Source of the DNA: Planctomycetales bacterium | Lineage (GTDB): Bacteria; Planctomycetota; Planctomycetia; Pirellulales; Pirellulaceae | Length of the DNA stretch: 34,754 nt | Assembly: GCA_020426595.1 (NCBI GenBank) | Contig: JAGQPS010000020.1 | Span: forward strand, 1-34,754 | Direction of reading: 5' to 3' | In this document: piece by piece, positions 4,125-31,504 of the stretch | Position numbering within the stretch: position 1 is the first letter of the stretch | How the letters are laid out: each line of letters begins with the position of its first letter | Made by a program: the position numbers and the translations under genes | The notes under the pieces: model-generated | Databases searched by the model: none | Seen by the model: only the letters and a program-made list of their open reading frames with translations | What the model was told of the DNA's origin: nothing

Positions 4125-6743
4125 TTACGAATTGGCGGGAGCTGGCCCAAGACTCGCCGCTGGTTCAGCCGCAAGGGTTGGCCCCTCCATCGTGCCCGAC
4201 TTGAACGCTCGGCCACCCACCGCGATCGCGAGGACGGTGAGCGAACTGACCGGCATCAGCGCGGCGGCCACGAGGGGATTGATTTGCCCGGCGGCGGCCA
4301 AGATGACCGCCAAGGCGTTGTACATCAAACTCACGCCAAGGCCGAGCTGAATAGTGTGGACCGTCCGCCGAGCTCCTTGCAGCAAGCCCAACAGCGGCAG
4401 CAAACCCGACCGCCCGAAGTAGACGTCGGCCGATCGCAGACTGATCTCCGCCCCCGACTGCACCGAGATCCCCACATCGGCCGCCGCGAGCGCCGCGCTG
4501 TCGTTCATGCCGTCTCCGACCATGACACAGGGACCGGTTCCCTGGTGACGGTGGTCGTTGAGCACTTCGACCTTTTGTTCGGGAGAGAGACTTCCCAGCG
4601 CCCGCCGAGACTCGATGCCTAACTCGCGAGCGACTCCCGCGACGACTCGTGGGTGGTCACCCGACAAGACTCCGACTTGCCAGCCGAGTTGCTTGAGTCG
4701 AGCGATCACACTCGCGGTCTCGCCACGCAGCGCGTCGCCCACACTCACGCCGGCGACGACCGCTCCATCCACCGCCGCCAGAATCGGCGTGCAGCCTTGC
4801 CGAGCCACCCAGTCGCTCCACCGATCCCATCGCGGGTCGATCGATGCCTTGTCACCCACGAATCGACTCGTTCCCACGCGCACGTCGCGTCCCGCCACGA
4901 CGCCAGCGATTCCGCCGGTCTCGCCTTGTTGGACTTGTTCGACCGATAACGACGAGGCCCCGTCATGACCGGTCGTGCCGCTGGCACCTCCGAGCGACCA
5001 ACGGCTCGAATCACGCGTGATGGCTCGCGCGGCCTGATGGTTGGATAGCGACTCGAGTGCCACGACGTATTCGATCACGCTTCGATCGCCGACCCACGAG
5101 CGGACGGAAGTCCGTCCTTCGGTCAACGTTCCCGTCTTATCGAACCAGATCGTTCCGGGATGAACCAAGCGTTCGAGAGCGTCACCACCCTTTACCAGCA
5201 GCCGCTGCCGAGCGGCTCGTCCCACGGCGACGGCGATCGCCAAGGGAGTCGCCAATCCAAGAGCACAGGGACAAGCCACGATCGCCAGCGCGATCGCATG
5301 ATCCCAGGCGTGAGGATCGCGGACCCACGACCAACCAAGAGCGGTCGCCAAGGTCGCCACGACGATCACCACGACGAACCAGCCTCCGAGCGCGTCGGCT
5401 CGCTGCACCAGACGAGTCCGTTTGAGCGCGGCGTTCTCGACGAGATCGATCAGTCGCCCGAGACGCGAGACGCCACCGACCGCCGTGACCTCGAGCTCGA
5501 TCGGACTCTCGATATTGTTCATGCCGCCATGCACGGCATCGCCGGGAGCGATCTCCACCGGAGTCGACTCTCCGGTGAGCAACGATCGGTCGATCGAGGT
5601 TCTCCCCGAGACGACGATTCCATCCGCTGGAATCGTCTCGTTCCCCAGCACGCGAACACGATCACCAACGGTGAGCGCCGACGCGGGAACCCACCGCGCC
5701 TCGCCTTCGGCCGAGACGCGCCGAGCGCGGCTTGGCGTGAGTTCATAGAGCCGGCGAATGTCGTCCGAGGCGCGGCGAGTCTGGCGGTATTGGATCCAGC
5801 GCCCGACGAGCAACAGAAATACCAGCATTCCGAGCGAATCAAAGTAGATCGCGCCGGTGTCGCGAAACGTGTTGATCCAGCCAACGGTCGTCCCGAGGCC
5901 CAAGCCGAGCGCGATCGGCAGATCCATATTGGGGACACCGGCCCGTAGGCCCGCCCAGGCCTGACGAAAGAAGGTCCGCCCTGGTCCGGCCAAGGCGATG
6001 GCCCCGAGTCCCGCGCTGACCCAACGCAAGTACCGTTCGATGTTGGCGTCCATGCCGCTCACCCAACCGGCATAGAGCGCGATGGCGATCAACATCAAGT
6101 TCCCCGCGACCGCCGCCGCGATGGCGATCTCGACCAACCTTCGACGCGTTTCACGCAGCGCCGATTCCTCGGCGTCATTGCGCTGGTAGGGATAAGGGCG
6201 GTAGCCAAGTTGATCGAGTCTCCGCGCGACCTGCGAGAGTTTCGTTTGCTCGGCATCCCACGTCACGGTCAGCACGCCGCGATGCAGATTGAGTCGGGCT
6301 TCACTGACGCCCGGCATCAACCGGGGCAATCGTTCGAGCAACCACACACAAGCCCGGCAATGGATTCCATCGAGTCGCAAATCAACGCTCAGGGAGTTGG
6401 GCCCCATCGATCGCGCATGATCCGCGAGAAAGCTCGGATCATCGAACTCCTCGTAGCTCTCGCCCGAGTCGCCGGGGTGTCCCGCCGCTCCTGGTTCATG
6501 GGCCCGATATTGATAGAAGTCATCGAGGCCCGAGGCATGGAGCAGTTCGTAAGCCGCCTCGCAGCCGTTGCAGCAGAACACGACGCCGGCCGCGGCCGCT
6601 TCGGCGTTGGCTCCGCGCGCGATGAGCAGCTTGGTTTGAGCCTCTTGATAGGCCCGCGGGATCGGCAACTGGCAATGCCGACAGACTCCGCTCGGGCCGG
6701 TGGCGCAGGCTTGCCCTTGAGAATCGGCCTCGCCGGCGCTCAT
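4125..6743 (-). CDS. ccoI: Copper P1B-type ATPase CcoI (FixI)
   Basis: CcoI pumps copper across the inner membrane for assembly of the haem-copper centre of cbb3 oxidase. The 872 residues hold an N-terminal cysteine-rich metal-binding domain typical of this subfamily (FCCNGCEAAYELL, 56-68), an HMA domain with CRAC (129-132), membrane helices, the actuator motif LTGES (389-393), the transport motif CPC (491-493), the phosphorylated aspartate in DKTGT (D535) and GDGMND (743-748). The nucleotide-domain His-Pro dipeptide expected near 569 reads SNHQ (567-570), an unusual change. The start overlaps the stop of the upstream TauE/SafE-like gene by ATGA, so the two are translationally coupled, and ccoS follows after 15 bp. 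Confidence 0.93.
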   Translation of the reverse strand: MSAGEADSQGQACATGPSGVCRHCQLPIPRAYQEAQTKLLIARGANAEAAAAGVVFCCNGCEAAYELLHASGLDDFYQYRAHEPGAAGHPGDSGESYEEFDDPSFLADHARSMGPNSLSVDLRLDGIHCRACVWLLERLPRLMPGVSEARLNLHRGVLTVTWDAEQTKLSQVARRLDQLGYRPYPYQRNDAEESALRETRRRLVEIAIAAAVAGNLMLIAIALYAGWVSGMDANIERYLRWVSAGLGAIALAGPGRTFFRQAWAGLRAGVPNMDLPIALGLGLGTTVGWINTFRDTGAIYFDSLGMLVFLLLVGRWIQYRQTRRASDDIRRLYELTPSRARRVSAEGEARWVPASALTVGDRVRVLGNETIPADGIVVSGRTSIDRSLLTGESTPVEIAPGDAVHGGMNNIESPIELEVTAVGGVSRLGRLIDLVENAALKRTRLVQRADALGGWFVVVIVVATLATALGWSWVRDPHAWDHAIALAIVACPCALGLATPLAIAVAVGRAARQRLLVKGGDALERLVHPGTIWFDKTGTLTEGRTSVRSWVGDRSVIEYVVALESLSNHQAARAITRDSSRWSLGGASGTTGHDGASSLSVEQVQQGETGGIAGVVAGRDVRVGTSRFVGDKASIDPRWDRWSDWVARQGCTPILAAVDGAVVAGVSVGDALRGETASVIARLKQLGWQVGVLSGDHPRVVAGVARELGIESRRALGSLSPEQKVEVLNDHRHQGTGPCVMVGDGMNDSAALAAADVGISVQSGAEISLRSADVYFGRSGLLPLLGLLQGARRTVHTIQLGLGVSLMYNALAVILAAAGQINPLVAAALMPVSSLTVLAIAVGGRAFKSGTMEGPTLAAEPAASLGPAPANS

Positions 6744-7618
6744 GGCCCCTGGCTCCCATCAGCCTCGGCGGTCGCTGATTCCTCGGCTTCGCGGAGTGCG
6801 TTTGCGGCCGCCTCGCAGCACGGCTTCTTTTCATTCGTCAGAGTCTCGATGCCGCCGCCATCCAGAACGACGGGATGTTGGCTCAGGTTGCCGAGCCATT
6901 CCTCCCACGCCGCGCTGGCTCGGCTACGAATCGTCGTGACGCCAATCGCGATCACAAGCACGGCGGTCGCCCAAGTGGCGTGTCGGCCCCAGCGACCGGC
7001 GATCCACCGCGCGCTGATGCCGAGCGAAACCAGGACCGGGAGTGCTCCGGCCCACAACAATCCCATCACCGCAGCGCCAGCCCAGGGCGAACCGGTACCG
7101 GCGGCGACGAGCACGAATGTGTAGAGCCAGCCGCAGGGGAGCAAACCGGTCACCAATCCCAGAGTCGTCGCGCGGGCCCGAGGGCTCCAGCCCGCGCTCG
7201 CCTTGCGCACGCGCACGATGAAGTTCATGAGCCCCTTGGGAAGCGGCAAATGCCAGAATCGGCCTAGCCAATGTTTGACCAGCACCGCCACGCCAATCCC
7301 GATGCTCGTGATGCCAGCCAGCCAAGCCGCGCCAACCTGCCAACCGACCCAATCGCCTCCCAGATCCAAGGCCGCGCCGAGGGCTCCGGCCGCGAGTCCG
7401 ATCGCGAGGTAGGTCGTTAGGCGTCCCGCTTGGTAGCAAAGCGTCGTACCGGAGCTTCGACGCGGCGCGGCGCATCCGCCTTGCGAGTCACAGCCTTCGC
7501 GCGAACCACTCCGCCCCGTTCCGCCCGCCAATGCCGCGATCGGTCCGCACATGCCGGCGCAATGCAGCGAACCGACAAGGCTGGCGATGGCGACGGCGGT
7601 CCAAAAGGTGACATTCAT
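6740..7618 (-). CDS. TauE/SafE (DsbD_2-like) family membrane protein
   Basis: This 292-residue membrane protein belongs to the group annotated as sulfite exporter TauE/SafE or UreH/DsbD_2-like, which is often found inside cbb3 gene clusters. It has about six hydrophobic helices and the hallmark motif HCAGMCGP (19-26) in the first helix, whose cysteines could handle copper; the C-terminal tail has a KPCCEA segment. The name should not be taken as proof of sulfite export. Position between ccoG and ccoI, with a 21-bp gap on one side and a 4-bp overlap on the other, argues for a role in oxidase maturation, probably metal or thiol handling. A purine-rich GAGAGAG lies upstream of the ATG. Confidence 0.85.
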   Translation of the reverse strand: MNVTFWTAVAIASLVGSLHCAGMCGPIAALAGGTGRSGSREGCDSQGGCAAPRRSSGTTLCYQAGRLTTYLAIGLAAGALGAALDLGGDWVGWQVGAAWLAGITSIGIGVAVLVKHWLGRFWHLPLPKGLMNFIVRVRKASAGWSPRARATTLGLVTGLLPCGWLYTFVLVAAGTGSPWAGAAVMGLLWAGALPVLVSLGISARWIAGRWGRHATWATAVLVIAIGVTTIRSRASAAWEEWLGNLSQHPVVLDGGGIETLTNEKKPCCEAAANALREAEESATAEADGSQGP

Positions 7619-7639
7619 GAGCGAGGCTCTCTCTGGGTT

Positions 7640-9073
7640 CTAGGGACCCGCCATGCGGAAACTAATGACTCGTTCATCCCCTTGGTCGCTGCGGAAGGTC
7701 ACTTTCACGGGCAACCAATGATCCTTGAACAGGGACGCCGGTGCCACGGCTCGAAGTCCAGCGGTCACGCTTTTCTCGCCCTCGATCGGAATCTCATCGC
7801 TCGTCGTTTTCACATCGACCTCCGCCGGTTCGACGCCGACAAGCGTGAGGACCGCATCGTCCCGAGAGCGATTGACCAAGTGCATGGTGAAGGTGTTGGC
7901 GATCCGATCGCTCTCCACCTTCTGGTAAGGCAATCCTCGCTCACGATTGATCGCGACATCGAAGCTCTTGCGTCCCATCACGAGTGTCACGATTCCGGTG
8001 ACCAAGGCGAGCAAGACGATGGGATAGATCAAAATCCGTGGGCGGAACAACGAGAAACGCTGGCCCTCGTCTTCCATTTGCGAACTGTAGTGGATCAACC
8101 CCTGGGGACGACCAATCTTCTCCATCACGTCATCACAAGCGTCGATGCACTGAGCGCAGTTGATGCACTCGAGTTGCAGGCCGTCTCGTATGTCGATGCC
8201 CGTGGGACAAGTCGTCACGCATTTACGACAATCCACGCAGTCTCCGACGATGGGCAAGTCGGGAGACATCTCCTTGCGTCGCCCCTTGTGGCGAGGCTCG
8301 CCACGAGCCTTGTCATAGGACACCACGCGCGAACTTCGGTCGAGCAACACCGACTGAAATCGGCCATAGGGACAGGCGATGATGCAGAGCTGTTCGCGGA
8401 AGAAACCGAAATCGAACAACATCGCGATCGTGACGAGCGTCACGATGCCGAACGCCCATGGGTGCTCGAACGGCGTGCTCCGCCAAACCCACTTGATCAG
8501 ATTGTCCATCCCCACGAAGTACGCGAGAAAGGTGTGGGCCAGGTAGAAACTGATCACGAAGTACAGGCCGTACTTCACCACCTGCCGCCAAGGAACTGCC
8601 GCCCCCTTGGCCTTACCTCCCTTGCCCCACGTTCCGTCGGCCCATCGTTCGATCGGCCGAAACACGAATTCCATGTACACGGTTTGAGGACAAGCCCAAC
8701 CACACCAGACCCGTCCGAAGACGGCGGTGAACCAAAAGATCGAGAGAAAGACAAAGACCATGCCGAGCGCCATGATCGCGGTGTCGGTCGGCAAGATGCG
8801 CAGGCCGAACACGAAGAACTCGCGATTCATGATGTCGAGCAGCAACAGCGGGCGGCCGTCGTACTTGAGGAATGGCAGCAGCGTGAACACGAAGATCAAG
8901 AGGGCCGCCACGATGCGACGGCGGCGAAGATAGCGACCGTCGGAAACCTTGGGTTTGAGCCAGCGACGTGAACCGTCGCTCTCCATGGTGGAGAGGATCT
9001 GCCCAGGTGGCTTGAGCAGATGGGGAACCGCTTCTTGACCTTGCTCCGGTTGCTCTGACGCTGACTGAACCAT
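7640..9073 (-). CDS. ccoG: cbb3 oxidase accessory protein CcoG (ferredoxin-type)
   Basis: CcoG (FixG/RdxA) is a membrane-bound iron-sulfur protein that helps cbb3 oxidase assembly; work in other bacteria links it to cupric ion reduction. In 477 residues it shows membrane helices, the family motif CGWACPQT (124-131), CIIACPYG (230-237), and two [4Fe-4S] ligand sets: C279/C282/C285 with C289, and C303/C306/C309 with C313. A final helix (about 347-366) is followed by an Ig-like C-terminal domain. A GTG codon lies immediately upstream in frame, but the ATG at 9073 has GGAGAAGG at good spacing and is preferred. A separate transcription start upstream is possible, because 268 bases lie between ccoP and ccoG. 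Confidence 0.93.
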   Translation of the reverse strand: MVQSASEQPEQGQEAVPHLLKPPGQILSTMESDGSRRWLKPKVSDGRYLRRRRIVAALLIFVFTLLPFLKYDGRPLLLLDIMNREFFVFGLRILPTDTAIMALGMVFVFLSIFWFTAVFGRVWCGWACPQTVYMEFVFRPIERWADGTWGKGGKAKGAAVPWRQVVKYGLYFVISFYLAHTFLAYFVGMDNLIKWVWRSTPFEHPWAFGIVTLVTIAMLFDFGFFREQLCIIACPYGRFQSVLLDRSSRVVSYDKARGEPRHKGRRKEMSPDLPIVGDCVDCRKCVTTCPTGIDIRDGLQLECINCAQCIDACDDVMEKIGRPQGLIHYSSQMEDEGQRFSLFRPRILIYPIVLLALVTGIVTLVMGRKSFDVAINRERGLPYQKVESDRIANTFTMHLVNRSRDDAVLTLVGVEPAEVDVKTTSDEIPIEGEKSVTAGLRAVAPASLFKDHWLPVKVTFRSDQGDERVISFRMAGP

Positions 9074-9085
9074 CACACACCTTCT

Positions 9086-9105
9086 CCGACTGAAGCTTCA
9101 GCCGG
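9086..9105. promoter_or_regulatory. 20-bp near-perfect palindrome upstream of ccoG
   Basis: The sequence CCGACTGAAGCTTCAGCCGG is a palindrome with one mismatched pair and a perfect 12-bp core, CTGAAGCTTCAG. It lies just upstream of the ccoG ribosome-binding site. It could be an operator for a dimeric repressor or a 5'-UTR structure; no known regulator site was recognised. Confidence 0.35.
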
Positions 9106-9341
9106 AAACATGAAGTCGATGGGTTCACGACGAGCCCACCCCACAACAAACGCTCCCGACACGCAAGTCGAGGAGCACCCCTGTCGCACGTTGGTACGGC
9201 CACCAAGGGCCTCGCGACGACAGCGGTTCAAGGCGAGAAACTCCGGCTCGGGCGATTGACTCCCAACCGAGGTCGGGACGCCGTTGCCATGGAGATTCGT
9301 GCCACGTTGCGAGACATGGCACTCGGCCCCTCGAGCCCCCG

Positions 9342-10142
9342 CTATTCTCCACCGCCGCCTGGGGCGACGAGCGGAGGCTCACTGTTGGTGGTTTCCTCGG
9401 TGGAGCCCTCGGCCGCCCCGTCACCCGCGCCGGCCTCGGCGGTACCGTCACCGGCAGCGCCGTTTTCGATCGCACCTTCGTTGGACGATTCGGGCGTTTC
9501 GGAGCTTACGTCGGGGGTTGTTGTTTCGCTGGAATCCTGGCCATCTTCTGGCGATTCCTCGAGGCTGGTGGGCCACGGAGGAATCACATTGCCCTCGGCT
9601 TCCTTGGGCTGGGCCGGGCTGGTGCCACGAAGACTCGCGACGTAGCACGCGACGAGCACCACTTCATTCGGATGGAGACGCGTCCGCCAAGCGGGCATCG
9701 CCCCGTTGTTGGCCCCGTCGGCCACGACCTTGGCGAGATCCTCGATCTGCTTCACGTTCTTATAAGCGTCGTCGGTCAGGTTGGGCCCCTGCAAACCACC
9801 GCCATCGGGAGCGTGGCAGGTAATGCAGTTCGCTTGATAGACAACCTTGCCAACGTCGAGCCACTTGGTGTCCTGATAGAACTTGATCATCTCGGCCCGA
9901 GTTCCCTGCAATTCACCAATCTCGGAGAATTGCTGGCGAAGATTCGCGGCGTTGGCCCGTTCGTATTGATCGATGACGCCGCGTCCGGATACGCCGGAGT
10001 GGAAGTAAATGAAATAGAACAGGCTATGGACCGCGGTCGCGAAGAACAGCCAGTTCCACCAACCTGGAGTCGGGTTGTCGTACTCTTGAATCCCGTCATA
10101 GACGTGACCCGACAACTCATGGTTATCCGATGTTTCTGACAC
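9342..10142 (-). CDS. ccoP: cbb3 oxidase subunit CcoP, monohaem form
   Basis: CcoP is a membrane-anchored cytochrome c subunit that feeds electrons to the cbb3 catalytic core. The 266 residues start with a FixP N-terminal region (YDGIQEYDNPTPGWW, 15-29), one membrane helix (about 30-50), then a single cytochrome c domain with CITCH (106-110) and MPAW (149-152, axial Met149). Classical CcoP has two haem domains; only one is present here. From about residue 180 the protein is a long tail rich in Glu, Ser, Thr, Ala and Gly with no fold I recognise. The start is GTG, fixed by a perfect AAGGAG nine bases upstream. It follows ccoQ by 89 bp. Confidence 0.9.
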   Translation of the reverse strand: MSETSDNHELSGHVYDGIQEYDNPTPGWWNWLFFATAVHSLFYFIYFHSGVSGRGVIDQYERANAANLRQQFSEIGELQGTRAEMIKFYQDTKWLDVGKVVYQANCITCHAPDGGGLQGPNLTDDAYKNVKQIEDLAKVVADGANNGAMPAWRTRLHPNEVVLVACYVASLRGTSPAQPKEAEGNVIPPWPTSLEESPEDGQDSSETTTPDVSSETPESSNEGAIENGAAGDGTAEAGAGDGAAEGSTEETTNSEPPLVAPGGGGE

Positions 10143-10231
10143 GATCCGCTGCTCCTTGATTATCGCTGTTCAAATGCGATGCATTCGCGAGGCGTGTGCG
10201 ATCACCCGCCCGGCCGTTACCGATGTGGCGT

Positions 10232-10387
10232 CTAGTCCTCGAGGGGAAGCCGAGAAACCACACTCACTTCCTTGCGCCGCTGGAGCAACGCCTGAGTCGT
10301 CGCGATGGCGAAGGCCGCGAGGAACAGCACCAGGCCGCCCTCCGCCCAGAACTGATAGTCCATGTGCTTGAGTACTTCTTTGATCAT
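10232..10387 (-). CDS. ccoQ: cbb3 oxidase subunit CcoQ-like small protein
   Basis: The 51-residue product has one membrane helix and ends RRKEVSVVSRLPLED. A basic stretch directly after the helix and an acidic RLPLED-type ending are typical of CcoQ, the small subunit that stabilises cbb3 oxidase. Position between ccoNO and ccoP agrees with this. Three starts are possible: TTG at 10417, ATG at 10387 and ATG at 10363. I chose 10387 because AAAGG lies eight bases upstream; the 10363 ATG would give the conventional MDYQFW start and a 43-residue protein but has a poorer ribosome-binding site. Confidence 0.8.
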   Translation of the reverse strand: MIKEVLKHMDYQFWAEGGLVLFLAAFAIATTQALLQRRKEVSVVSRLPLED

Positions 10388-10523
10388 CCGAATGGCCTTT
10401 ATGGTTGCCGCGCCCAAGGCGCTCGAGATTTCTGGTTGAGTGGGATGGGAATGAAGTCAAGCGTTTCACGAGCTGGGCCCGTGGTCTCGCCAGGCATATT
10501 CCATGGAGCCGAACCGCGGACGA

Positions 10524-10565
10524 GATCGGAGGAGTCGATGATGCTCACTTTCGACTCCTCCGATC
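10524..10565 (-). terminator. Perfect 15-bp stem hairpin between ccoNO and ccoQ
   Basis: GATCGGAGGAGTCGA (10524-10538) is exactly complementary to TCGACTCCTCCGATC (10551-10565), with a 12-base loop. It starts 13 bases after the ccoNO stop codon. No T-run follows on the minus strand, so a pure intrinsic terminator is unlikely; a partial terminator or an mRNA-end stabiliser that sets the ccoNO to ccoQP ratio fits better. Confidence 0.55.
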
Positions 10566-10578
10566 CCAGTTCCGAGGG

Positions 10579-13017
10579 CTAGCGAGGCGTCGCGAGCGTT
10601 TCCTCATCACTACTTGAGCGATCGGTCGTCGCGCCGCTGGCCGTGGATTCCGTTCCTGCCCCATCGGGAGTCTCGTTCGACTCCGTCGCCGCCGTGCTTT
10701 CAGCTTCCGGCTCCGTTTCCGAGGTGGGTTCCTCGGCTTCCGCGGCCGGTTCTTCGGTGTTGTAGATATCGGTGCCCAGACGCTGGAGATAAGCGATCAA
10801 GGCGACCACCTTCTTGTCATGCAATCCCTCGGGACCGTCTTGTCGAGCGATTTCCTCCGCGATCTCTCGCGCTTGTCGCTCGGCATCGGCGGCCGGGTTG
10901 TTCATGATCTCGTCCGAGTACTCGGCGCCAAGGAACGACGCCGCGCGAACGCGTGGTTGCACGTCGGCGAAGTTGATCGTCTCTTGCTCGAGCCATGCAT
11001 AGGCCGGCATGATCGACCCTTCCACTTGGCTCGCGGGATCACGGAAGTGAGTCACGTGCCAGAGGTGCGATTGGCGACCTCCGACTCGAGCCAAGTCGGG
11101 ACCGATGCGCCGTGAGCCCCATTGGAATGGCCGGTCATACACGAACTCCCCGGCTCGCGAGTAATCACCGAATCGCTTCTTGTCCGCCAACAATGGACGA
11201 ATCATCTGCGAGTGGCAGTTGTAACAACCTTCCGCCACGTAGATGTCGCGACCATAGAGCTCAAGCGGCGTGTACGGCTTGACCGAGGCGATCGTTGGTA
11301 CGTTGCTGCGGATCAGGAACGTTGGCACCATTTCAAAGGCACTGGCCAGCAAGACACTCGCCGTGACCCACAGGGTGAGCCGGACCGGGAGACGTTCGAG
11401 GCGACGGTGCCAGAACGCCTTGCTCCACACATCGACCTTCTTGCCGATCTCGAGCACGCCATCGAGTTGCGACTTGGGAGGCACCGGATCGTGGAATCCG
11501 CCTCGCAGCGGAGCCGCGCGATGGACCGGCACTTCGTAAACCGCGGGACGAGCCGCCCAGGTCATGATGAGGTTGACCATCATCATCACCACGCCCCCCA
11601 CATACAGCAGTCCGGCACAGATACGGATGATGTAGGGAATCTGCAGAACGCGAGTCGTTTCAATCCAGTTCGGATACTCAAGAGCACCGTTCTCGGGATT
11701 GATCGCCGACCACATCAGGCCTTGCGTGATGCCGGCCCAGTAAATCGGGATGATGTAGAGCAGGATCGCGAGCGTGCCAGTCCAGAAGTGAGTCGAAGCC
11801 CAGCTCTTGCTCCACAGTGGCGTCTGGAAGACTCGAGGAGCCAACCAGTAGAGCATGCCGAACGCCATGAAGCCGTTCCAACCGAGTGCGCCCGAGTGCA
11901 CGTGGGCGATCGTCCAGTCGGTAAAGTGGCTGAGCTTGTTGACGCTCTTGATGGACAACAACGGACCTTCGAACGTCGACATGCCGTAGAAGGTAATACC
12001 GACGACGAAGAACTTCAGAATCGGATCGTCCGCCACCTTCTTCCAGGCGCCTCGCAACGTCAACAGACCGTTGATCATGCCGCCCCATGAAGGCATCCAC
12101 AGCATGACCGAGAAGATCATGCCGAGCGTCGACATCCAGTCGGGCACCGCCGAGTAATGCAAGTGGTGCGGACCGGCCCAGATGTAGATAAACACAAGCG
12201 ACCAGAAGTGAATGATGCTCAAGCGGTACGAGAAGACCGGTCGATCCGCCGCCTTCGGCAGGAAGTAATACATCAATCCAAGGAAGGGCGTGGTGAGGAA
12301 GAACGCCACCGCGTTGTGGCCGTACCACCACTGCATGAAGGCGTCTTGCACACCCGCGTAGATCGGATAGCTGGTGAGGATGCCCGTCGGCACGACCAAG
12401 TTATTGAAGACGTGCAGGACCGCCACGGTCACGATCGTCGCGATGTAGAACCAGAGAGCCACATACAAGTGACGCTCGCGACGATGGAGCAACGTCATCA
12501 GGAAGTTGCCGCCGAAGATCACCAACCATACGACCGCGATCAGCAAGTCGACGGGCCACGGCAACTCGGCATACTCCTTACCCTGGCTGAAGCCCAACGG
12601 AATCGTCAGAGCCGCCAGGACGATGATCAGCTGCCAACCCCAGAAATGCAGACGGCTCAGCAAGTCGCTGTACATGCGACACTTGCAGAGCCGTTGGGTG
12701 GAGTAGTAGACGGCCGCGAAGATCGCGTTGCCGGCGAACGCGAAGATCGCCGCGTTCGTATGCAACGGCCGCAGGCGACCGAACGTGAGGAAGTCGAGCC
12801 CGAAGCTGGCCTGGGGGACGACCAACATCAGGGCGACGTAGACTCCCGCCAAGGTTCCCACCAGAGCCCACAACACCGTTGCCGCCACAAACAGCCGGAC
12901 GATGCCATCGTCGTAGGTGAACTCTTCAAGATTCCCATCCTTGCCGACTCCCGCCGGATTGGCGATGTCGAGCTTGGAAGCGTCATCGCTTCCGGCCAAC
13001 GCTTCGGTCTGACTCAT
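10579..13017 (-). CDS. ccoNO: cbb3-type cytochrome oxidase, fused CcoN-CcoO
   Basis: This is the catalytic subunit of a cbb3 oxidase, joined to the monohaem electron-transfer subunit CcoO in one 812-residue chain. The CcoN part (about 40-500) has twelve or so helices and the metal ligands: H86 in RPLHTNAA, YGHNAV (232-237; H234), GPHHLHYS (282-289; H284/H285), and AHVHSGALGWN (371-381; H372/H374). The CcoO part (about 540-755) has an anchor helix, CYNCH (598-602) and M670 in MPAY. A tail of about 58 residues rich in Glu, Ser and Thr follows. The frame runs further upstream, but the start at 13017 (MSQTEALAG) is chosen because everything before it lacks family similarity. It leads the cco locus; a GCAGGCGGA segment upstream is a weak ribosome-binding site. 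Confidence 0.95.
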   Translation of the reverse strand: MSQTEALAGSDDASKLDIANPAGVGKDGNLEEFTYDDGIVRLFVAATVLWALVGTLAGVYVALMLVVPQASFGLDFLTFGRLRPLHTNAAIFAFAGNAIFAAVYYSTQRLCKCRMYSDLLSRLHFWGWQLIIVLAALTIPLGFSQGKEYAELPWPVDLLIAVVWLVIFGGNFLMTLLHRRERHLYVALWFYIATIVTVAVLHVFNNLVVPTGILTSYPIYAGVQDAFMQWWYGHNAVAFFLTTPFLGLMYYFLPKAADRPVFSYRLSIIHFWSLVFIYIWAGPHHLHYSAVPDWMSTLGMIFSVMLWMPSWGGMINGLLTLRGAWKKVADDPILKFFVVGITFYGMSTFEGPLLSIKSVNKLSHFTDWTIAHVHSGALGWNGFMAFGMLYWLAPRVFQTPLWSKSWASTHFWTGTLAILLYIIPIYWAGITQGLMWSAINPENGALEYPNWIETTRVLQIPYIIRICAGLLYVGGVVMMMVNLIMTWAARPAVYEVPVHRAAPLRGGFHDPVPPKSQLDGVLEIGKKVDVWSKAFWHRRLERLPVRLTLWVTASVLLASAFEMVPTFLIRSNVPTIASVKPYTPLELYGRDIYVAEGCYNCHSQMIRPLLADKKRFGDYSRAGEFVYDRPFQWGSRRIGPDLARVGGRQSHLWHVTHFRDPASQVEGSIMPAYAWLEQETINFADVQPRVRAASFLGAEYSDEIMNNPAADAERQAREIAEEIARQDGPEGLHDKKVVALIAYLQRLGTDIYNTEEPAAEAEEPTSETEPEAESTAATESNETPDGAGTESTASGATTDRSSSDEETLATPR

Positions 13018-13579
13018 GCTGTGGGTCGTCCGCCTGCAACGGTCACTGAACCTGCGATCCGCCAACATCGGCTCGATCGCGCACTGAATGCAACGCGTCG
13101 CACTGACGCAACCACTGTGCCAGTGCAAACTGCGCCGATTCGTCGCACCCCGATCCAAAGGGTTCCCGCATCGCTTCAAGCCGGCCCAAGTGTCGAGAAG
13201 CTCGCCTACTTGCGGCTCAAGGTAGCGCCAAGCTCCCCTCACGCTTGGTCCGCACATTCCGGCACACCGACCCGTCATCAGCGCGCCGCTAGCTGTGCGG
13301 CGCGCTTTTCCAGCGTGCACGTGTGCGGCCATGCACACTTGTCGGTCGACTGTGAGGAGCCAGCGGGTCGAGGCGGTAGGCAACTCCTCGCGTCCGTCGC
13401 GATGGTCATTGCTCGAGCGAAAGATTGCGAACCCCTAGAAGCCTCCGCTAGGCTGATCTCGGTTACCAACGATCGAGCTGATCCATTCCTCCCGGTCCGC
13501 GGACCGACGATCACCCAGCCTCGGTCCGCGCGCCTTCCCACTGACGCTTTCCGCCACATCTTGCCAGGAGACCCGCACG
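13018..13579. other. Divergent promoter region, ccoNO and oxidoreductase
   Basis: These 562 bases separate two diverging genes and must hold both promoters. I looked for an FNR-type box (TTGAT-N4-ATCAA), common before cbb3 genes, and found none. A strong hairpin at 13281-13305 is listed separately; another short inverted repeat, GTGTGC/GCACAC, lies near 13320-13338. No gene is supported here. Confidence 0.5.
13281..13309 (+). terminator. Intrinsic-terminator-like hairpin with no upstream gene
   Basis: GCGCGCCGC (13281-13289) pairs perfectly with GCGGCGCGC (13297-13305) around a 7-base loop, followed on the plus strand by TTTT. The form is that of an intrinsic terminator reading plus, yet the nearest plus-strand gene starts 270 bases downstream. 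It could end a small RNA or a leader transcript. Confidence 0.5.
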
Positions 13580-16900: not shown

Positions 16901-17593
16901 ATGAGCGATCTTGAATCCAACGAACTGGTTCCCACGACTGGGACCACGGAGCCGTCGGGCGATGCGGCCCGCATCGCCGAAATGGCGGACGAGTCGGCGC
17001 GCAAATGGGTCCAGCGGCTTTACGGCGGCCGGAATGAGCGGGCCAAGGCTCTGGAGGAACTGCGTTCGATCTTGCTGCGCGGATTGCGAGCCGCGTTCGC
17101 CGGCGACAATGTGTCGGACGACCTGTTCGAGGATGCCGTGCAGGATTCGCTCATGAAGATCCTCCGCAACCTCGACTCGTTCGAGGGGCGGAGTCGATTC
17201 GAGAGCTGGGCGACTTCGATCGCGCTGCGCACCTTGCTATCCGAACTCCGACACCGGCGTTACCAAGACATTCCGCTCGCGAGCCTCAGTGATCCCAACC
17301 GAGGCGTATCCAGCGCTCAGCCCGATCGGAGCGAAACGTCACCCGACGTACAAATGATGAAGCAACAAGTCGTCGCGGTGATGCATCGTCTCATCGACGA
17401 ACATCTTTCCGAGCACCAACGATCGGCTCTGCGAGGCGTGCTGGCTGGCATCCCGAGTGATGTCCTGGCCAATCGACTGCACTTGCAACGCAACGCACTT
17501 TACAAATTGCTGCACGATGCTCGGCAAAAACTCAAACAAGGGTTGGCCCAAGAAGGCTACGAAGGCGCCGACCTGCTCTCTCTCTTTGAATAA
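16901..17593 (+). CDS. ECF-type RNA polymerase sigma factor
   Basis: This 230-residue protein is a group 4 (ECF) sigma factor. Region 2 (about 60-125) includes FEDAVQDSLMKILRNL (75-90) and RFESWATSIALRTLLS, the core-binding and -10 segment. After a linker, region 4 (about 165-215) forms the helix-turn-helix (VLANRLHLQRNALYKLLHDA). The N-terminus is about 55 residues longer than the minimum. GGAGA lies close to the ATG. A small zinc-finger protein gene follows after 15 bp and is its likely anti-sigma factor; a thioredoxin gene lies before it. Target promoters and inducing signal are unknown. Confidence 0.88.
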   Translation: MSDLESNELVPTTGTTEPSGDAARIAEMADESARKWVQRLYGGRNERAKALEELRSILLRGLRAAFAGDNVSDDLFEDAVQDSLMKILRNLDSFEGRSRFESWATSIALRTLLSELRHRRYQDIPLASLSDPNRGVSSAQPDRSETSPDVQMMKQQVVAVMHRLIDEHLSEHQRSALRGVLAGIPSDVLANRLHLQRNALYKLLHDARQKLKQGLAQEGYEGADLLSLFE

Positions 17594-20272: not shown

Positions 20273-22786
20273 TTAGGTCCTCAGCCGCAACGCGTTGCCA
20301 ATCACGCTCACGCTGCTGAAGCTCATGGCCGCGGCGGCGACCATGGGACTCAATGTCCAACCGAGCCAGGGATACAGCACGCCAGCGGCGATCGGAATGC
20401 CGATCGCGTTGTAGGCGAAGGCGAAGAAGAGATTCTGCCGAATGTTGGTCATCACGCGACGCGACAACCGAATGGCCTCCGCCAAGGCACGAGGGTCTCC
20501 GGCGACGAGTGACACGTCGGCGGTTTCGATCGCGACGTCGGTCCCGGTCCCCATCGCGATGCCAACATCCGCGGCCGCGAGACTCGGGGCGTCATTGATG
20601 CCGTCGCCGACCATCGCCACGACTTGGCCCGTTTGCTGCAACGATCGAATCAGCCGTTGCTTGTCCTCGGGCAGGGCGTCGGGCAATACTTGCTCGATGC
20701 CGACTTGAGCCGCGACGCTCCGCGCGACCGCCGCGCGATCACCGCTGGCGAGATGCACGGTGCAGCCCAGTTCGCGCAGCGAGCGAACCGCTTCCACCGC
20801 GTTCGGCTTGATGGCATCGGCCAGGACGATCGCTCCGATCACGTTCGTGTCCCTCGCCACCCAAACCACGGTCCCGGTAACGGAATCGACGCGCTTTCGC
20901 AAACCCTCGGGAATCCGTCCACCCACTTCTTCCAACCACGGGGCGCGCCCCAATCGCCAAACGTGGCCGTCGATCCGCCCCCGCACGCCGGATCCCGCTT
21001 GAATGCTGATCTCCGCCGCCGTGGGCAATGACAATTCGCGCCGCTGGGCTTCGAGAACGATCGCGGCCGCGAGTGGGTGTTCGCTCCCTCGCTCCACCGC
21101 CGCCGCCGAGGCCAACACGCGAGCCTCATCAAAACCCTCGGCCGAATCCTCGGCTAGTTCAATCCGATCGACTCGCGCCTTCCCCTCGGTCAACGTGCCG
21201 GTCTTGTCGAACACGATCGTCCGCACTTGGGCCAGTCGCTGCAGCGCCGCGCCTTGCTTGATCAGAATCCCGCCTCGAGCGGCTCGTCCCACACCGACCA
21301 TGATCGATACGGGAGTCGCCAAGCCCAGCGCGCAGGGACAGGCGATCAACAGCACCGAGATGGCGGCGAGCGCGGCACTGGAAAGTCGCTCGTCGGCCGG
21401 CCCCCAAATCCACCAGGCGAGCGCGGCGGCGAGCGCGCAAACGATCACGATCGGAACAAACACGCTCGCGACTTGATCGGCGAGTTTCTGAATCGGAGCT
21501 CGCGTGCGCTGCGCTTCGGTGACCGCGTGAATGATCCGAGCCAACAACGAATCACGAGTCGTCGCGCGGACTTCAATGAGCAGCGCGCCTTCACCGTTGA
21601 TCGTGCCTCCGACGACATCGTCTCCCGACTCGCGCGCCACCGGCAAGGACTCGCCCGTCACCATCGCTTCGTCCAGGTGCGACGCGCCTTCCAGGACGTG
21701 ACCATCGATCGGCACGCGCTCGCCCGGCTTCACCCGCACACGATCGCCAACCTTTAGTTGCTCGATCGGTACCGATTGTTCTTGGCCCTCGGTCAGTAGA
21801 GTCGCGTGCGTCGGATTGAGCGCGAGGAGTTGGCCGAGCGCCGACTGTACCTTGAGTCGAGCCCCGATCTCGAGCCACTGACCGAGCAGGACGAGCGTGA
21901 TGATCACCGCGGCGGATTCAAAGTACCAACCGCCGTGATCTTGATTGGCCCAAGTCGGCAATAGTCCCGGTGTGATCAACGCGACCAAACTCAGTCCCAA
22001 GGCCGCCCAAGTTCCCAGCGCGATGAGCGTGAACATGTTGGGCGAGCGATGGATCACGCTATTGACCGCTCGAGTCCACAGAGGCCATGCGGACCAGGTG
22101 ACGACCGGCAAAGCCAAGGCGAACTGCAGCCAACCGGCGACTTGATGAGAGACACCTGGGAGCCTCAACCCGATCATCGGTCCCATGGCGATGAGGAACA
22201 ATGGAGTCGTCAATGTGGCCGCGACGACCAGCCGCCGGGAAATGTCGGCTCGCCCCATATCGTCGGCCGTGGCCGTGGGACGTGTCGGTTCGAGGTCCAT
22301 GCCACAGATCGGACAGGCTCCGGGTTCCGCGCGTCTCACCTCCGGATGCATGGGGCAGACATATTCCACGTCGCGCCGGGCCGCGGGGTTGGCCTGCAAG
22401 GGCATCCCACAGTGCGGACAGTCACCCGGCGAATCGGACTCGACCGTTGGACAACAAGGACAGAAGTAAGCGGATTGGACGACACGATTCGCCTTGCTCC
22501 CCGCGCTGCTGGCGCCCCCACAGCAACTCGGCGGTTCACTCGCCGGGGCCGCACAACAACCTCCGACCGAGTCTTCACCGTCCGAAACTGGCGGGCCCAT
22601 TTGTATTTGGAAAACGCCGGCATTGGCCGGTTGAGGCGCGCGGTCAGGGACCGAAAGTCCGTGCCGCCGTGCGTATTGGCTCTGGCACCCCGCCGAACAG
22701 AAGTAGACCGGTTCCCCATCATGCTCGAGGGAGAATCGTGCGGTGCCGGGGTCAACCTGCATGCCGCATATGGGGTCGATGGCCAT
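20273..22786 (-). CDS. Copper-type P1B ATPase with YHS and two HMBD modules
   Basis: A heavy-metal efflux ATPase, probably exporting Cu(I) or Ag(I), 837 residues. The N-terminus has a YHS domain (MAIDPICGMQVDP, then YFCSAGC at 28-34), a CC..CC spacer (C77/C78 and C88/C89), and two heavy-metal-binding modules: YFCPCCPTV (107-115) with CPHCGMPL, and the canonical YVCPMHPEV (142-150) with CPICGMDLEP. The ATPase core shows VTGES (376-380), CPC (483-485), DKTGT (D527), SEHP (568-571) and GDGIND (727-732). The frame also has a GTG start at 22837, but the ATG at 22786 begins the YHS domain directly. No clear ribosome-binding site is seen. No copper-responsive regulator gene is adjacent. Confidence 0.93.
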   Translation of the reverse strand: MAIDPICGMQVDPGTARFSLEHDGEPVYFCSAGCQSQYARRHGLSVPDRAPQPANAGVFQIQMGPPVSDGEDSVGGCCAAPASEPPSCCGGASSAGSKANRVVQSAYFCPCCPTVESDSPGDCPHCGMPLQANPAARRDVEYVCPMHPEVRRAEPGACPICGMDLEPTRPTATADDMGRADISRRLVVAATLTTPLFLIAMGPMIGLRLPGVSHQVAGWLQFALALPVVTWSAWPLWTRAVNSVIHRSPNMFTLIALGTWAALGLSLVALITPGLLPTWANQDHGGWYFESAAVIITLVLLGQWLEIGARLKVQSALGQLLALNPTHATLLTEGQEQSVPIEQLKVGDRVRVKPGERVPIDGHVLEGASHLDEAMVTGESLPVARESGDDVVGGTINGEGALLIEVRATTRDSLLARIIHAVTEAQRTRAPIQKLADQVASVFVPIVIVCALAAALAWWIWGPADERLSSAALAAISVLLIACPCALGLATPVSIMVGVGRAARGGILIKQGAALQRLAQVRTIVFDKTGTLTEGKARVDRIELAEDSAEGFDEARVLASAAAVERGSEHPLAAAIVLEAQRRELSLPTAAEISIQAGSGVRGRIDGHVWRLGRAPWLEEVGGRIPEGLRKRVDSVTGTVVWVARDTNVIGAIVLADAIKPNAVEAVRSLRELGCTVHLASGDRAAVARSVAAQVGIEQVLPDALPEDKQRLIRSLQQTGQVVAMVGDGINDAPSLAAADVGIAMGTGTDVAIETADVSLVAGDPRALAEAIRLSRRVMTNIRQNLFFAFAYNAIGIPIAAGVLYPWLGWTLSPMVAAAAMSFSSVSVIGNALRLRT

Positions 22787-23342
22787 GGTGAATCCAAACG
22801 ATTGTCGTGTCGACGCGCGGCGCCACTCCCGGGGCACGGTCCATGGCCCCGTTTGGTCCGCCGTTCTTCGACGTAGATTGGGTCGTCGTTTCTTACGCGA
22901 GAGCTCAACGCTCTAGCGGAAAACGGAAGGCGAGCGATCTGGATCGGCATTCGCGATGCCTGTCCGCTCGATTCAGTCGCGAGGGAACGGGCGAACTCGT
23001 GATTTCCAACGGGTTTGCATCGCGGCCAGTCCCGGTTAAGCCCGACACCTTTTTTCTAGAGACTGTCCCGGCGGAAGTCGATGGTTTCTCTCACGCCATT
23101 CCATTCGTGAGTCGACCCAGGAAGTCGAAACGCTCGATCGCCGTGAGCGAGACGAAAGGCGGGGCGAATCGCGGCCGGATGAGCGACGAGTCCTCTTTCC
23201 TTCGCGGCCTCGTTCGACCACGATGTGGAGTCATGGGCGTTTCGGCCCACCGTTTGCGGACTCGTTGGTGCCCTCGGCGTGGGTGCGAGGCTTGCCCCGC
23301 GATCGAAACAGCCTCCGTGCTGGTTCGGTAAAGGGTGTTAGG
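22787..23342. other. Intergenic region upstream of the copper ATPase
   Basis: About 550 bases lie between the copper ATPase start (minus) and the first tiny plus-strand gene. A 174-codon plus-strand frame crosses it, but its codon choice and overlap with the ATPase 5' end argue against a gene. The ATPase promoter must be here; no known metal-regulator operator was recognised. Confidence 0.45.
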
Positions 23343-27818: not shown

Positions 27819-29504
27819 CTAGGAACGATAGAAGGCTCGGCTGACGCAGCCGCGGTGGGCTTGGTCGACCGTCGCGCTGAAGTCGGCGAGGTAGCCTCGC
27901 GCGTAGGTGCGGCTCGGTGGCTGCCAACGCGACCGGCGCGACTCCACCTCCGCCTCGCTCACTTCCCACTCGAGCGTGCCGTTCAATAGATCGAACGTGA
28001 TCGAGTCTCCGTCCTCGACCAACGCGATTGGTCCGCCCACTTCGGCCTCGGGACTGCAATGCACTCCGATCGCTCCGTGCGAAACGCCGGAGACTCGGGT
28101 GTCGGAAATCAGAGCGACCTTGCCATCGAGTTCCGGCACGCTCAGCGCCGCGCTGGCGACCAAGACCTCGGGCATGCCGCTGGCGACCGGACCAAGGTAA
28201 CGCAGCACGATGATATGGCCCGGCTTGATCTTGCCCGCTTCCACCGCGTCCTGCACCTGCTTCGCATCGTCGAAGCAAATCGCTTGCCCGGTGAAGCGTG
28301 ACGACTTCATGCTCGAGACTTTGAACACGATCCCATCGGGAGCCAGGTTGCCGAAGCAAACCTGCATGTCGGCATATTCCTTGAACGGTTGATCGACCGG
28401 TGCGATCAGATCCTGCCCCTCGGGCACATCCGGGACGTCCGCCAGGTTCTCGGCCATCGTGCGGCCCGTGACGGTCAGACAATCCCCGTGCAGCAGACCC
28501 ATTTGCAGCAGCCGCTTGAGCAACACCGGCGTGCCACCGATCTTGTGCAGATCGACCATCGTGCGACGCCCACGTGGAGCGAAACTGCAGATGACCGGCG
28601 TGCGACGGAGAATCGGTTGCAGGTCGGCCAGACTAAAGTCGACTCCCGCCTCGACGGCTAGCGCCATCATGTGCAGGACTCCGTTGGTCGAACCGCCCGC
28701 CGCCGCGATCGTTACCGCCGCGTTCTCGAAGGCCTTACGAGTCAGAATGTCGCGCGGCCGCAGTCCGAGCGCGAGCAGGTTCTTGACCGCGGTTCCCACG
28801 TGCCTGCACTCGTTTCGCTTCCCTGGATCCTCGGCCGGAATCGAGCTGCTCGAGGGCAACATCAAACCGACCGCCTCGAGAAAGAGGCCCCAGGTGTTGA
28901 ACGACGCCGCGATGCCGCAGCCTCCCGGACCCGGGCATGCGGTACGCAGAATCTGATCCGCCTCGGCACGAGTCCCCGAGCCCACCATCGCGGCCGCCTG
29001 CGAGTCGTACACGTCGAGAATCGAGATGTCCCTGCCCGCGTGACAGCCCGGCCGAATGCTCCCTCCGCTCACGATCAGACCGGGATAATTCATGCGAGCC
29101 AAAGCCATCGCGAAGCCGGGACCATTCTTGTCGCAATGGTGCAGACCGATCATCGCGTCGTAGCAGTGCGCGGTCACCACGCACTCGGCGCTGTTGGCGA
29201 TCAGATTGCGCGAGACGAGGCTCGCGTTGCCTCCCTCAAGCCCCTGCGTGATGTTGTCGCTCACCCCCGGCACGCCGAAAGGAAAGCCCATCAAGCCCGC
29301 TTCCTGACAACCGGCCGCGATCTCCCGTCCCAGCTCATAGGCGTGAACGTTGCAAAGATTGCCCTCGAGTAACGGAACGCCGATGCCGACCTGAGGACGA
29401 TCGAAATCCCCCTCGGCGAAACCCAGCCCATAGAAGAAGGCCTTCACACCCTGTTGCCAGCCATGAGTGACTTGGCGGCTATTCCAGTTCTCGGCGGAGT
29501 TCAT
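27819..29504 (-). CDS. IlvD/Edd family dehydratase
   Basis: A 561-residue iron-sulfur dehydratase of the dihydroxy-acid/sugar-acid family. Probable cluster ligands are C51 (EGNLCNVH), C124 in HHCDKNGPG (K126 is the metal-side lysine) and C196 in GPGGCGIAASFNTW. The serine region reads SDTRVSGVSHGAIG. Compared with classical IlvD (GACGGMYTANTM and DGRFSGGTHG) these motifs are altered, so the substrate may be a sugar acid and not the valine/isoleucine precursor. It lies 103 bp downstream of the tetrahaem anti-sigma gene on the same strand and may share its transcript. Confidence 0.88.
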   Translation of the reverse strand: MNSAENWNSRQVTHGWQQGVKAFFYGLGFAEGDFDRPQVGIGVPLLEGNLCNVHAYELGREIAAGCQEAGLMGFPFGVPGVSDNITQGLEGGNASLVSRNLIANSAECVVTAHCYDAMIGLHHCDKNGPGFAMALARMNYPGLIVSGGSIRPGCHAGRDISILDVYDSQAAAMVGSGTRAEADQILRTACPGPGGCGIAASFNTWGLFLEAVGLMLPSSSSIPAEDPGKRNECRHVGTAVKNLLALGLRPRDILTRKAFENAAVTIAAAGGSTNGVLHMMALAVEAGVDFSLADLQPILRRTPVICSFAPRGRRTMVDLHKIGGTPVLLKRLLQMGLLHGDCLTVTGRTMAENLADVPDVPEGQDLIAPVDQPFKEYADMQVCFGNLAPDGIVFKVSSMKSSRFTGQAICFDDAKQVQDAVEAGKIKPGHIIVLRYLGPVASGMPEVLVASAALSVPELDGKVALISDTRVSGVSHGAIGVHCSPEAEVGGPIALVEDGDSITFDLLNGTLEWEVSEAEVESRRSRWQPPSRTYARGYLADFSATVDQAHRGCVSRAFYRS

Positions 29505-29607: not shown

Positions 29608-30840
29608 TCAAAGGCAGCAAACCAAGGAACTCAGCCGGAGCGATGGAATTCGGCCATGCTCGTCGCGGCGCTCGCGATCGATTCCCTCATGCAGCCCCGC
29701 CACATGGCACTCTTGGCACGATCGACCTTCCATTTGCCCGGCGCCTCGATGGCCTCGCAACTCCCTCATCGGTCCCAACTCGTGACAGTCCTGGCAATTC
29801 GCCCCCCAATGCTTCGTTGGCAAACCCCGCCCGCAGACATCGTCCGACAACTGGTGACAAGCCGTACAGCTCGCCACGACCGCCATCACCCGCGGAGCAT
29901 CGCGGTCGGACGCGGGAGTCTCATGAGGCGAATCGGCGCCCCTCGCGGAGCCAGACAACTCCGGCATCACACTCCGCTCACCACCGAAATCCGCGCGATG
30001 GCACTTGGTGCAACATTGAAATTGTAGAGCGGTCAACTCGTGCACCGACGCCGCGGCTCCGGGGCGTGCGGCATCCGCGCCGCCACCCAACGCCTCGTCG
30101 GTCGCCAATACGTCGGCCACGCCGCGACAAGCCGCCGGGATCGCCAAGGCGGAAAGCTGCGCGAGCCCCGCATCGCTAGGACGCCCCCATTCGCCGGCGG
30201 CGGCGATACGCGGGGACCGAGCCTGCCAACCGCTCCGCCATCCCTCGCTACGCCCCCAAGTGAACGACACGACAATCAGTGTCAAAGCCGCCACCACGGC
30301 CAGCACGCTCGTGGGCAATCCCAGCCCCTCCCGGCTTTCGCCTCGTGCCACGCGCCCGGCCAGCTGAACCTTGCCGTTGCCACCGGCCACCGTTCTGGCC
30401 GACTGATCAGGATCAACCACACCATCGACAGGAATCGCACAAGGCTTGGGACAAGAACACTCCGCGACTTCATCGGACGTGGCCAAGGGCCAACCGAGCG
30501 ATTGCCATTGAGCCCGTGCCTCGGCGACCGGTAACGGCCGCTCACCCGATTCCCAGGGTCGAGGCGTCTGTTCGCGCGGCGCTGATCGGCCGACCGCTGA
30601 ACCGCCGCTCCAGTCCTCGCGACAAGTCGACAAACCCGCGAGAGCCGCTTGCCAAACTTGCCATTGAGCTCGGCACGACGCGCACGCCTCGAGGTGCCGA
30701 TGCAGCGAGTCGCTCGCGATCGAGCCGCTCTCATCGCTGTTGCTTGGACGCGCGATCGATAGCAACTCCGCCGGTTCTCGAGTGAGCAAGAACTCGCAGT
30801 CGCCCTCCGAGGCTTGCTGTCGTGCGGGATGGTCATTCAT
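29608..30840 (-). CDS. Transmembrane anti-sigma factor with tetrahaem c-type domain
   Basis: A 410-residue protein with an unusual domain order. Residues about 40-70 form a zinc-finger anti-sigma domain with HLEACASC (H49-x3-C53-x2-C56). A cytoplasmic linker includes CSCPKPC (128-134). One membrane helix lies at about 177-196 (SVLAVVAALTLIVVSFTW). The outer domain has four CxxCH haem c motifs: CTKCH (277-281), CTACH (325-329), CQDCH (349-353) and CQECH (375-379), with further histidines that could be axial ligands. It probably holds a sigma factor and releases it on a redox or electron-flow cue. The longer frame to 30999 is rejected: the ATG at 30840 has GGGAG at good spacing and overlaps the sigma stop by 8 bp, showing coupling. 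Confidence 0.82.
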   Translation of the reverse strand: MNDHPARQQASEGDCEFLLTREPAELLSIARPSNSDESGSIASDSLHRHLEACASCRAQWQVWQAALAGLSTCREDWSGGSAVGRSAPREQTPRPWESGERPLPVAEARAQWQSLGWPLATSDEVAECSCPKPCAIPVDGVVDPDQSARTVAGGNGKVQLAGRVARGESREGLGLPTSVLAVVAALTLIVVSFTWGRSEGWRSGWQARSPRIAAAGEWGRPSDAGLAQLSALAIPAACRGVADVLATDEALGGGADAARPGAAASVHELTALQFQCCTKCHRADFGGERSVMPELSGSARGADSPHETPASDRDAPRVMAVVASCTACHQLSDDVCGRGLPTKHWGANCQDCHELGPMRELRGHRGAGQMEGRSCQECHVAGLHEGIDRERRDEHGRIPSLRLSSLVCCL

Positions 30841-31504
30841 CTGCATTTCTCCCACGTTCGTCCCTACGCTCGTCCGTGTCTTTGGTATCACGAGGCCGAA
30901 AGAAGTTGCCCAGCAAGTCCAATCCGGCACGCACGCGATTCTTGGCCGTTGCCAGACAACACCCTTGGGTTTGTGCGATCTCCGGATAAGTCGCTTCACC
31001 GAAGTAGCGCAATCGCACCGCGTCGGCGATGGCTTCGGGGAGCGTCGGCAGGGCCCGCGCGATCGCTCCTTGCAACTCGCTTCGCTCCGCCGCGCTCACC
31101 GGATCCTCGGTCCCAGCGAACGACGCCCACTCGATCGCCTCGGCCGGCAACCGACTGGGCTGGCGAGACTCGAGCGTTTGTCGTCGACGACACTGATTGA
31201 ATAGGATCGTCCACAACCAAGTACGAAACCCATACCGCTCGTCGTAACCCGCCAGATATCGGAACGCCGCGAGGAAGGTCTCTTGCACGACCTCATCGGC
31301 CGAATCAGTTGTCAGGCCACGGCTGATGGCCAGTCGCCGAAGAGCTCCCTCGTACCGCCGCACCAACTCTCCAAACCGCTCGCTCTCGCCCGAGAGCACC
31401 TCGCGCACGAGCGCCTGATCGGGTGTCGAATCGAACGATGACCGTGGATCATCATTCGCTCCCGATTCAGCGGGCGTGCGGTGGCTAGAAGCTGGCGGCG
31501 TCAT
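30833..31504 (-). CDS. ECF-type RNA polymerase sigma factor
   Basis: A 223-residue group 4 sigma factor. Region 2 (about 30-110) contains the core-binding segment DEVVQETFLAAFRYLAG and the -10 segment RTWLWTILFNQCRRR. Region 4 (about 148-205) includes LRYFGEATYPEIAQTQG and the recognition helix near LATAKNRVRAGLDLL. Its last 8 bp overlap the start of the tetrahaem anti-sigma gene, so the two are made together. The start ATG lies in a 150-bp gap after a strong terminator for the neighbouring reductase gene. The regulon is unknown; the IlvD-like gene downstream is one candidate. Confidence 0.9.
   Translation of the reverse strand: MTPPASSHRTPAESGANDDPRSSFDSTPDQALVREVLSGESERFGELVRRYEGALRRLAISRGLTTDSADEVVQETFLAAFRYLAGYDERYGFRTWLWTILFNQCRRRQTLESRQPSRLPAEAIEWASFAGTEDPVSAAERSELQGAIARALPTLPEAIADAVRLRYFGEATYPEIAQTQGCCLATAKNRVRAGLDLLGNFFRPRDTKDTDERRDERGRNADE

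Follow-up and report, generated by a model that had tools for sequence, protein, structure and literature searches.

A putative c-type haem sensor domain on a conserved membrane zinc anti-sigma factor of Planctomycetota

The window analysed here (the whole 34,754-nucleotide stretch of contig JAGQPS010000020.1, from a Planctomycetales bacterium, assembly GCA_020426595.1) encodes a membrane zinc anti-sigma factor of a real, conserved variant type that extends across the lineage and has a putative c-type haem sensor, its mechanism being inferred. What is shown is the pairing with an ECF sigma gene, a zinc motif of the anti-sigma type, a membrane helix and CxxCH motifs conserved across the order and beyond, usually with one companion cysteine per CxxCH over the same range. 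We consider this architecture well supported. The presence of haem in the external domain is likely, no haem having been demonstrated, and the pair probably senses through this small domain; haem attachment, sigma binding and the signal itself all remain inferences.

Organization of the gene pair

Both genes lie on the minus strand. The sigma gene (30833-31504, 223 aa) encodes an ECF sigma factor with regions 2 and 4, both recognised above Pfam cut-offs (Sigma70_r2, 6.9e-10; Sigma70_r4_2, 2.5e-6) and in NCBIfam (sigma70-ECF, 3.8e-20). The anti-sigma gene (29608-30840) encodes 410 aa, and its frame, read from 30840 to 29608, is interrupted by no stop. The two share 8 bp (30833-30840, minus strand, ATGAATGA), in which the anti-sigma ATG overlaps the sigma TGA; in orthologs, the junction is usually a small overlap or a small gap.

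From its N-terminus, the anti-sigma protein comprises a helical domain of the zinc anti-sigma type (residues 15-75, 30616-30798), in which C15 is followed by HLEACASC (residues 49-56, hence H49, C53 and C56) and helices at 41-78 are predicted with high pLDDT. A hydrophobicity scan detected one strongly hydrophobic stretch, from residue 173, corresponding to a single membrane helix (approximately residues 173-195, 30256-30324; predicted helix 177-205). The external part contains Cys238, in an LPxxC position (30127-30129), then CCTKCH (29998-30015), which combines Cys276 and the first CxxCH (CTKCH, 277-281, 29998-30012), and three further motifs: CTACH (325-329, 29854-29868), CQDCH (349-353, 29782-29796) and CQECH (375-379, 29704-29718). 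Of 200,000 shuffled versions of the external part, none contained four CxxCH motifs, and just one contained as many as three. A first-pass annotation of the window had described the zinc motif, the single helix, the four CxxCH, the 8-bp overlap and an extra CSCPKPC motif in the cytoplasmic linker; all of these held, with HLEACASC, the helix and CSCPKPC in the places it had given. The conserved external cysteines C238 and C276 were missing from it.

CSCPKPC (residues 128-134, 30439-30459) is indeed present, but it is a local oddity without conservation in orthologs and was rejected as a functional motif. Short Cys clusters do occur in the cytoplasmic linker of some relatives (CNCC in L028, CRCC in L031), at positions that are not conserved.

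Topology was supported at the level of the family. Lys and Arg residues total 118 before the helix versus 64 after it, with more before in 28 of 38 proteins, and this places the N-terminus inside and the CxxCH motifs outside. The window protein itself is even in this respect (4:4).

Regarding domain identity, neither the anti-sigma protein nor its relatives gave any Pfam or NCBIfam match reaching the curated cut-off. Weaker matches were obtained: zf-HC2 in 8 of 30 relatives (best E 1.7e-3) and Cytochrome_C7 in 7 of 30, both below the Pfam cut-off, and, for the Blastopirellula marina protein, an antisigma equivalog (7.5e-6) together with, weakly, a c7-type triheme domain, again under the NCBIfam cut-off. 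A profile built from 30 family members and searched against all solved structures matched ChrR through its N-terminal part (2q1z, 1.7e-3) and multihaem cytochromes c through its C-terminal part (6qvm, 4.2e-6; 3ubr, 6e-4). Structure models of the external part were of low confidence, and fold searches performed with them gave no match.

The zinc signature expected of a class I zinc anti-sigma factor (ZAS), a Cys ligand upstream of H-x3-C-x2-C, is found in 37/37 aligned proteins. The expected location immediately after an ECF sigma gene, with translational coupling, is likewise found, given the 8-bp overlap and 67 pairs, and is absent in 5 CxxCH-bearing and 16 CxxCH-less homologues. A curated family score (zf-HC2 or NCBIfam antisigma) is not reached, ChrR being found by profile only. 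Of the features expected of haem c, two are present, namely conserved external CxxCH motifs (two invariant, four in the window genus, with the N-in topology family-wide) and a maturation system in the same organism. The genome indeed has two PF01578 matches, one of them in a 1338-aa frame that represents a cytochrome c assembly gene and has the form that a fused CcsBA would be expected to have.

Conservation, motif number and distribution

The CxxCH family could be detected only by way of the sigma gene. Used as a single query, the window protein found no relatives in 241 genomes of its family or in the species collection, because its sequence is divergent (a long branch in the tree). By contrast, sigma orthologs were identified in 39 genomes of the family, among them that of the window, with E-values no higher than 1e-25, the set being bounded by an E-value gap (1e-25 vs 1e-22). 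Wherever the sigma ortholog was readable, the next gene encoded a protein of about 190-350 aa with the same order of parts as the window protein: C-xn-H-x3-C-x2-C, one helix, CC[ST]xCH and, close to the C-terminus, a further CxxCH. In an alignment of 37 such proteins, C15, H49, C53, C56, C238, C276 and both CxxCH were invariant in all 37; R57 was too, and few other columns were. The stretches RGPFP and LPGYWG, outside the known zinc motif, are also conserved. Overall, a sigma ortholog followed by a partner with CxxCH and zinc motifs was found in 67 non-redundant pairs, most of them tightly spaced or overlapping. The combined anti-sigma and cytochrome-type reading of the first-pass annotation is thus supported: the main check it had proposed, a search for the same domain order in other genomes, came out favourably, and the loss of motifs that it had named as refuting was not seen among the aligned proteins, 37/37 of which retain the zinc motif and two CxxCH.

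Its description of the protein as tetrahaem holds for the window genus only. The usual form in the family has two CxxCH, at the very C-terminal end in most members, and the spacing between these two varies widely, from 23 to 54 residues in most. Three motifs were found in only two genomes besides the window genus, and four are confined to that genus, so the last two CxxCH of the window protein are an extension belonging to it. A genus mate (G001) also has four (CCTRCH, CAVCH, CGDCH and CKECH, the latter two corresponding to the third and fourth motifs of the window protein); its frame is broken by stretches of two N and its zinc motif is unreadable. A single CxxCH is present in the sigma neighbour L018, and profile searches found the one-motif form, again accompanied by its sigma gene, in a second family within the class. 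Judging by its near-C-terminal position, the second CxxCH (325-329) is probably the motif retained in these one-motif relatives.

Profile searches located the anti-sigma protein in 65 of the 396 genomes of the order. In the species collection, the named matches belonged to Planctomycetota, including the cultured strain Blastopirellula marina DSM 3645, which has the two-motif form, and the others were bacterial MAGs; no similar protein was found on plasmids. The scan of the species collection used patterns drawn from the window's own family and is consequently blind to independent fusions elsewhere.

Among 88 non-redundant proteins, 67 had both CxxCH and sigma (an ortholog of the sigma gene within that short locus), 5 had CxxCH without sigma, 16 had neither, and none had sigma without CxxCH. 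Loss of the external domain with retention of the sigma gene was therefore observed in 0 cases. Such a pattern is what would be predicted if the external domain were the input to sigma, a possibility subject to caveats of sampling and kinship: 38 of the 67 pairs were gathered by starting from sigma, and the counts are inflated by kinship. The protein stops soon after the helix in G298 and in one family (f7) of the order. In a tree of the N-terminal domain, poorly resolved, the motif-less forms are scattered among two-motif forms and, being nested in this way, look like losses.

The 21 homologues without an adjacent sigma ortholog keep a highly conserved N-terminal domain. The orphan genomes that were searched contained no close sigma ortholog, their best matches reaching E 1e-24 to 1e-33 versus 1e-62 to 1e-75 for true orthologs. 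These orphans are confined to a few clades, and either a lost sigma gene or a switch to another sigma factor can account for them. The CxxCH-less orphans of f7 (L128-L131, L133, L136-L145), none with an adjoining sigma ortholog, share the N-terminus LTRGPFP...LAEALRP...LPGYWG, and several of them adjoin rsfS-like and argS-like genes, according to our own reading of the translations.

Haem, zinc or thiol in the external domain

The external cysteines beyond the CxxCH motifs follow the number of motifs. Exactly one was counted in 12 of 13 one-motif proteins and exactly two in 51 of 56 two-motif proteins, a 1:1 correspondence in 63 of these 69, and the 16 motif-less proteins have no companion Cys. 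Most three- and four-motif proteins have fewer companions than a 1:1 ratio would give, and L121 retains both CxxCH with both companion Cys absent. No distal His or Met is conserved in the aligned family. With one companion Cys per CxxCH and no conserved distal His, a His/Cys-ligated haem is the preferred model, haem attachment being inferred and a zinc or thiol site not being excluded. A general C238-C276 disulfide was rejected, and excluded for the one-motif relatives, because these possess a single companion Cys.

In the strongest of the alternatives, the external cluster of Cys and His holds no haem. It would then be a zinc (C3H) or a thiol/disulfide redox site whose oxidation frees sigma. 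This is not excluded, though rather unlikely. Most members have three Cys and one His per unit, a companion-Cys pattern that might equally suit C3H zinc sites, and the lack of a conserved distal His or Met also speaks for it. Thiol-zinc anti-sigma factors such as RsrA are, moreover, well established. Against it, both motifs keep an invariant His after their final Cys, a residue required for haem but not for a zinc knuckle, and the best PDB matches of the family profile for the external part are cytochromes c. The deviations from 1:1, in L121 (both CxxCH, zero companion Cys) and in most three- and four-motif proteins, and the wide variation in inter-motif spacing argue in the same direction. 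Cells that have a Ccs system normally load haem onto the CxxCH motifs of exported proteins. L121 and the invariant His following each motif favour haem over zinc.

A second alternative, which we consider unlikely, retains the haem and changes the signal: the domain would report haem supply or cytochrome c maturation, not redox, the unloaded protein being unstable or cleaved and the sigma factor thus freed then inducing maturation or respiratory genes. In its favour, the position of the motifs at the very C-terminal end leaves scant room for a classical sensor fold in most members, and variation from one to four motifs would be tolerable for a read-out of loading. However, the invariant companions C238 and C276 point beyond mere attachment sites, no maturation gene is among the conserved neighbours, and a maturation gene is still present in relatives that lack the external domain. 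Finally, a main role other than that of an anti-sigma factor, with the zinc domain binding some other partner and the adjacency to sigma reflecting only a shared operon, is also unlikely: the conserved N-terminal domain of the 21 homologues without an adjoining sigma ortholog, the lack of a close ortholog in the orphan genomes searched and the conserved RGPFP and LPGYWG would suit it, but the 67 pairs, the N-terminal matches to ChrR, zf-HC2 and antisigma models and the restriction of orphans to a few clades, explicable by sigma loss or switch, speak against it. Several points do count against the haem-sensor model: the five CxxCH proteins without an adjacent sigma ortholog, which may have another partner; L121, with its missing companion Cys; the lack of a conserved distal His or Met; the family scores below cut-off and the poor models of the external part; and the absence of any conserved neighbour or regulon pointing to a signal.

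Related systems, proposed mechanism and significance

The window pair resembles class I membrane ZAS of the zf-HC2 type (ChrR, RsrA, RslA, RseA-like) in its overlapping sigma and anti-sigma genes, its C-xn-H-x3-C-x2-C helical domain and its single helix, in line with the profile match to ChrR. It differs from them in that its external domain has c-type haem motifs and its zf-HC2 score is below the cut-off. External CxxCH motifs are known in signalling proteins with DUF3365/Tll0287 sCache_heme domains, where c-type haem has His/Cys axial ligation and where a signal-fused member shows NO-sensor-like binding (PMC12889525, a preprint, which does not mention sigma factors). Those domains have a Cache fold, one haem and other output modules, whereas the domain of the window family is shorter, its motifs, one to four in number, lying close to the C-terminus; no Pfam match to sCache_heme was found, nor any fold match, though the models were poor. 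The Geobacter chemoreceptors GSU0582 and GSU0935 are likewise membrane signalling proteins whose external sensor contains c-type haem (PMC3460858), but with one haem, a PAS-type swapped dimer and a methyl-accepting output, without sigma control. The closely spaced CxxCH of cytochrome c7 and paired CxxCH cytochromes (PF14522, PF09699) provide the best Pfam match of the external part, at a score below the curated cut-off; the window family differs in having no conserved distal His and in being joined to an anti-sigma domain. In the open literature searched, no title or abstract described an anti-sigma factor with a cytochrome or haem domain; ECF classification literature was only partly covered, so a prior description is possible. 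A paper on anti-sigma co-evolution and an ECF review mentioned neither haem nor cytochromes.

From a mechanistic point of view, the N-terminal zinc domain would bind the sigma factor in the cytoplasm, and the Ccs system would attach haem to every CxxCH outside the membrane. The haem ligands would be the motif His and, in most members, the companion Cys (C238, C276), which may be displaced by a redox change or by a small ligand such as NO. This displacement would rearrange the external domain and free sigma, either across the single helix or through cleavage. The two extra haems predicted in the window genus may provide a wider redox range or a link to an electron-transfer partner. Haem loading, the sensing role and sigma binding remain inference, as the first-pass annotation had already said of the first two.

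Essentially no neighbour is conserved besides the pair itself, and thus none points to the signal. Several sigma genes share a promoter-like motif (TTGACC..CGCTATAA), which occurs at one place in 15 genomes and therefore gives no regulon. As to the surrounding genes, ilvD (dihydroxy-acid dehydratase, 27819-29504, minus strand) lies downstream of the pair on the same strand; in the genus mate (locus L003), an ilvD-like reading adjoins the pair, apparently on the opposite strand by our own reading of the sequence. Another ECF-like sigma gene is located at 16901-17593 (plus strand); at the threshold applied, Pfam recognised only its region 2.

About 16 kb from the pair, the window contains a cbb3-type oxidase cluster (4125-13383, minus strand) with a CcoN-CcoO fusion (934 aa), CcoP, CcoG, a DsbD-like protein and a heavy-metal P-type ATPase, a second ATPase of this kind, with HMBD and YHS-type domains, being encoded at 20273-22837 (minus strand). 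In the genus mate G001, CcoO likewise lies on the contig of the sigma gene. Within the family, CcoO was found in 2 of 23 genera with the anti-sigma pair versus 23 of 45 without it (Fisher p 5e-4, kinship uncorrected), and the window genus is an exception in having the pair and CcoO on one contig. The cbb3 cluster was considered as a sigma target and the CcoO association was not used as support, since pair-bearing genera mostly lack CcoO and kinship was not adjusted for.

Membrane anti-sigma factors are a main route by which the outside reaches the genes in bacteria, and their signal is mostly unknown. This is especially relevant in Planctomycetes, which have many ECF sigma factors per genome and few known inputs. 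Haem attachment motifs built into such a protein name a likely cofactor and reduce the candidate signals to a short list: redox state, NO and haem supply. What is suggested, as a possibility that remains inferred, is that gene expression may be switched by the extracytoplasmic redox, gas or haem state. A bolder reading, tentative and on balance less likely than not as a joint claim, would be an order-wide class of switch in which a His/Cys-ligated mono-, di- or tetrahaem c sensor couples the outside redox or NO state straight to an ECF sigma factor, with lineages differing in the number of haems, from one to four. Natural variants with zero, one, two, three and four motifs, together with the linked absence of the sensor and the sigma gene in one family, make the general idea of a haem-based input testable, for instance in the cultured Blastopirellula marina DSM 3645.
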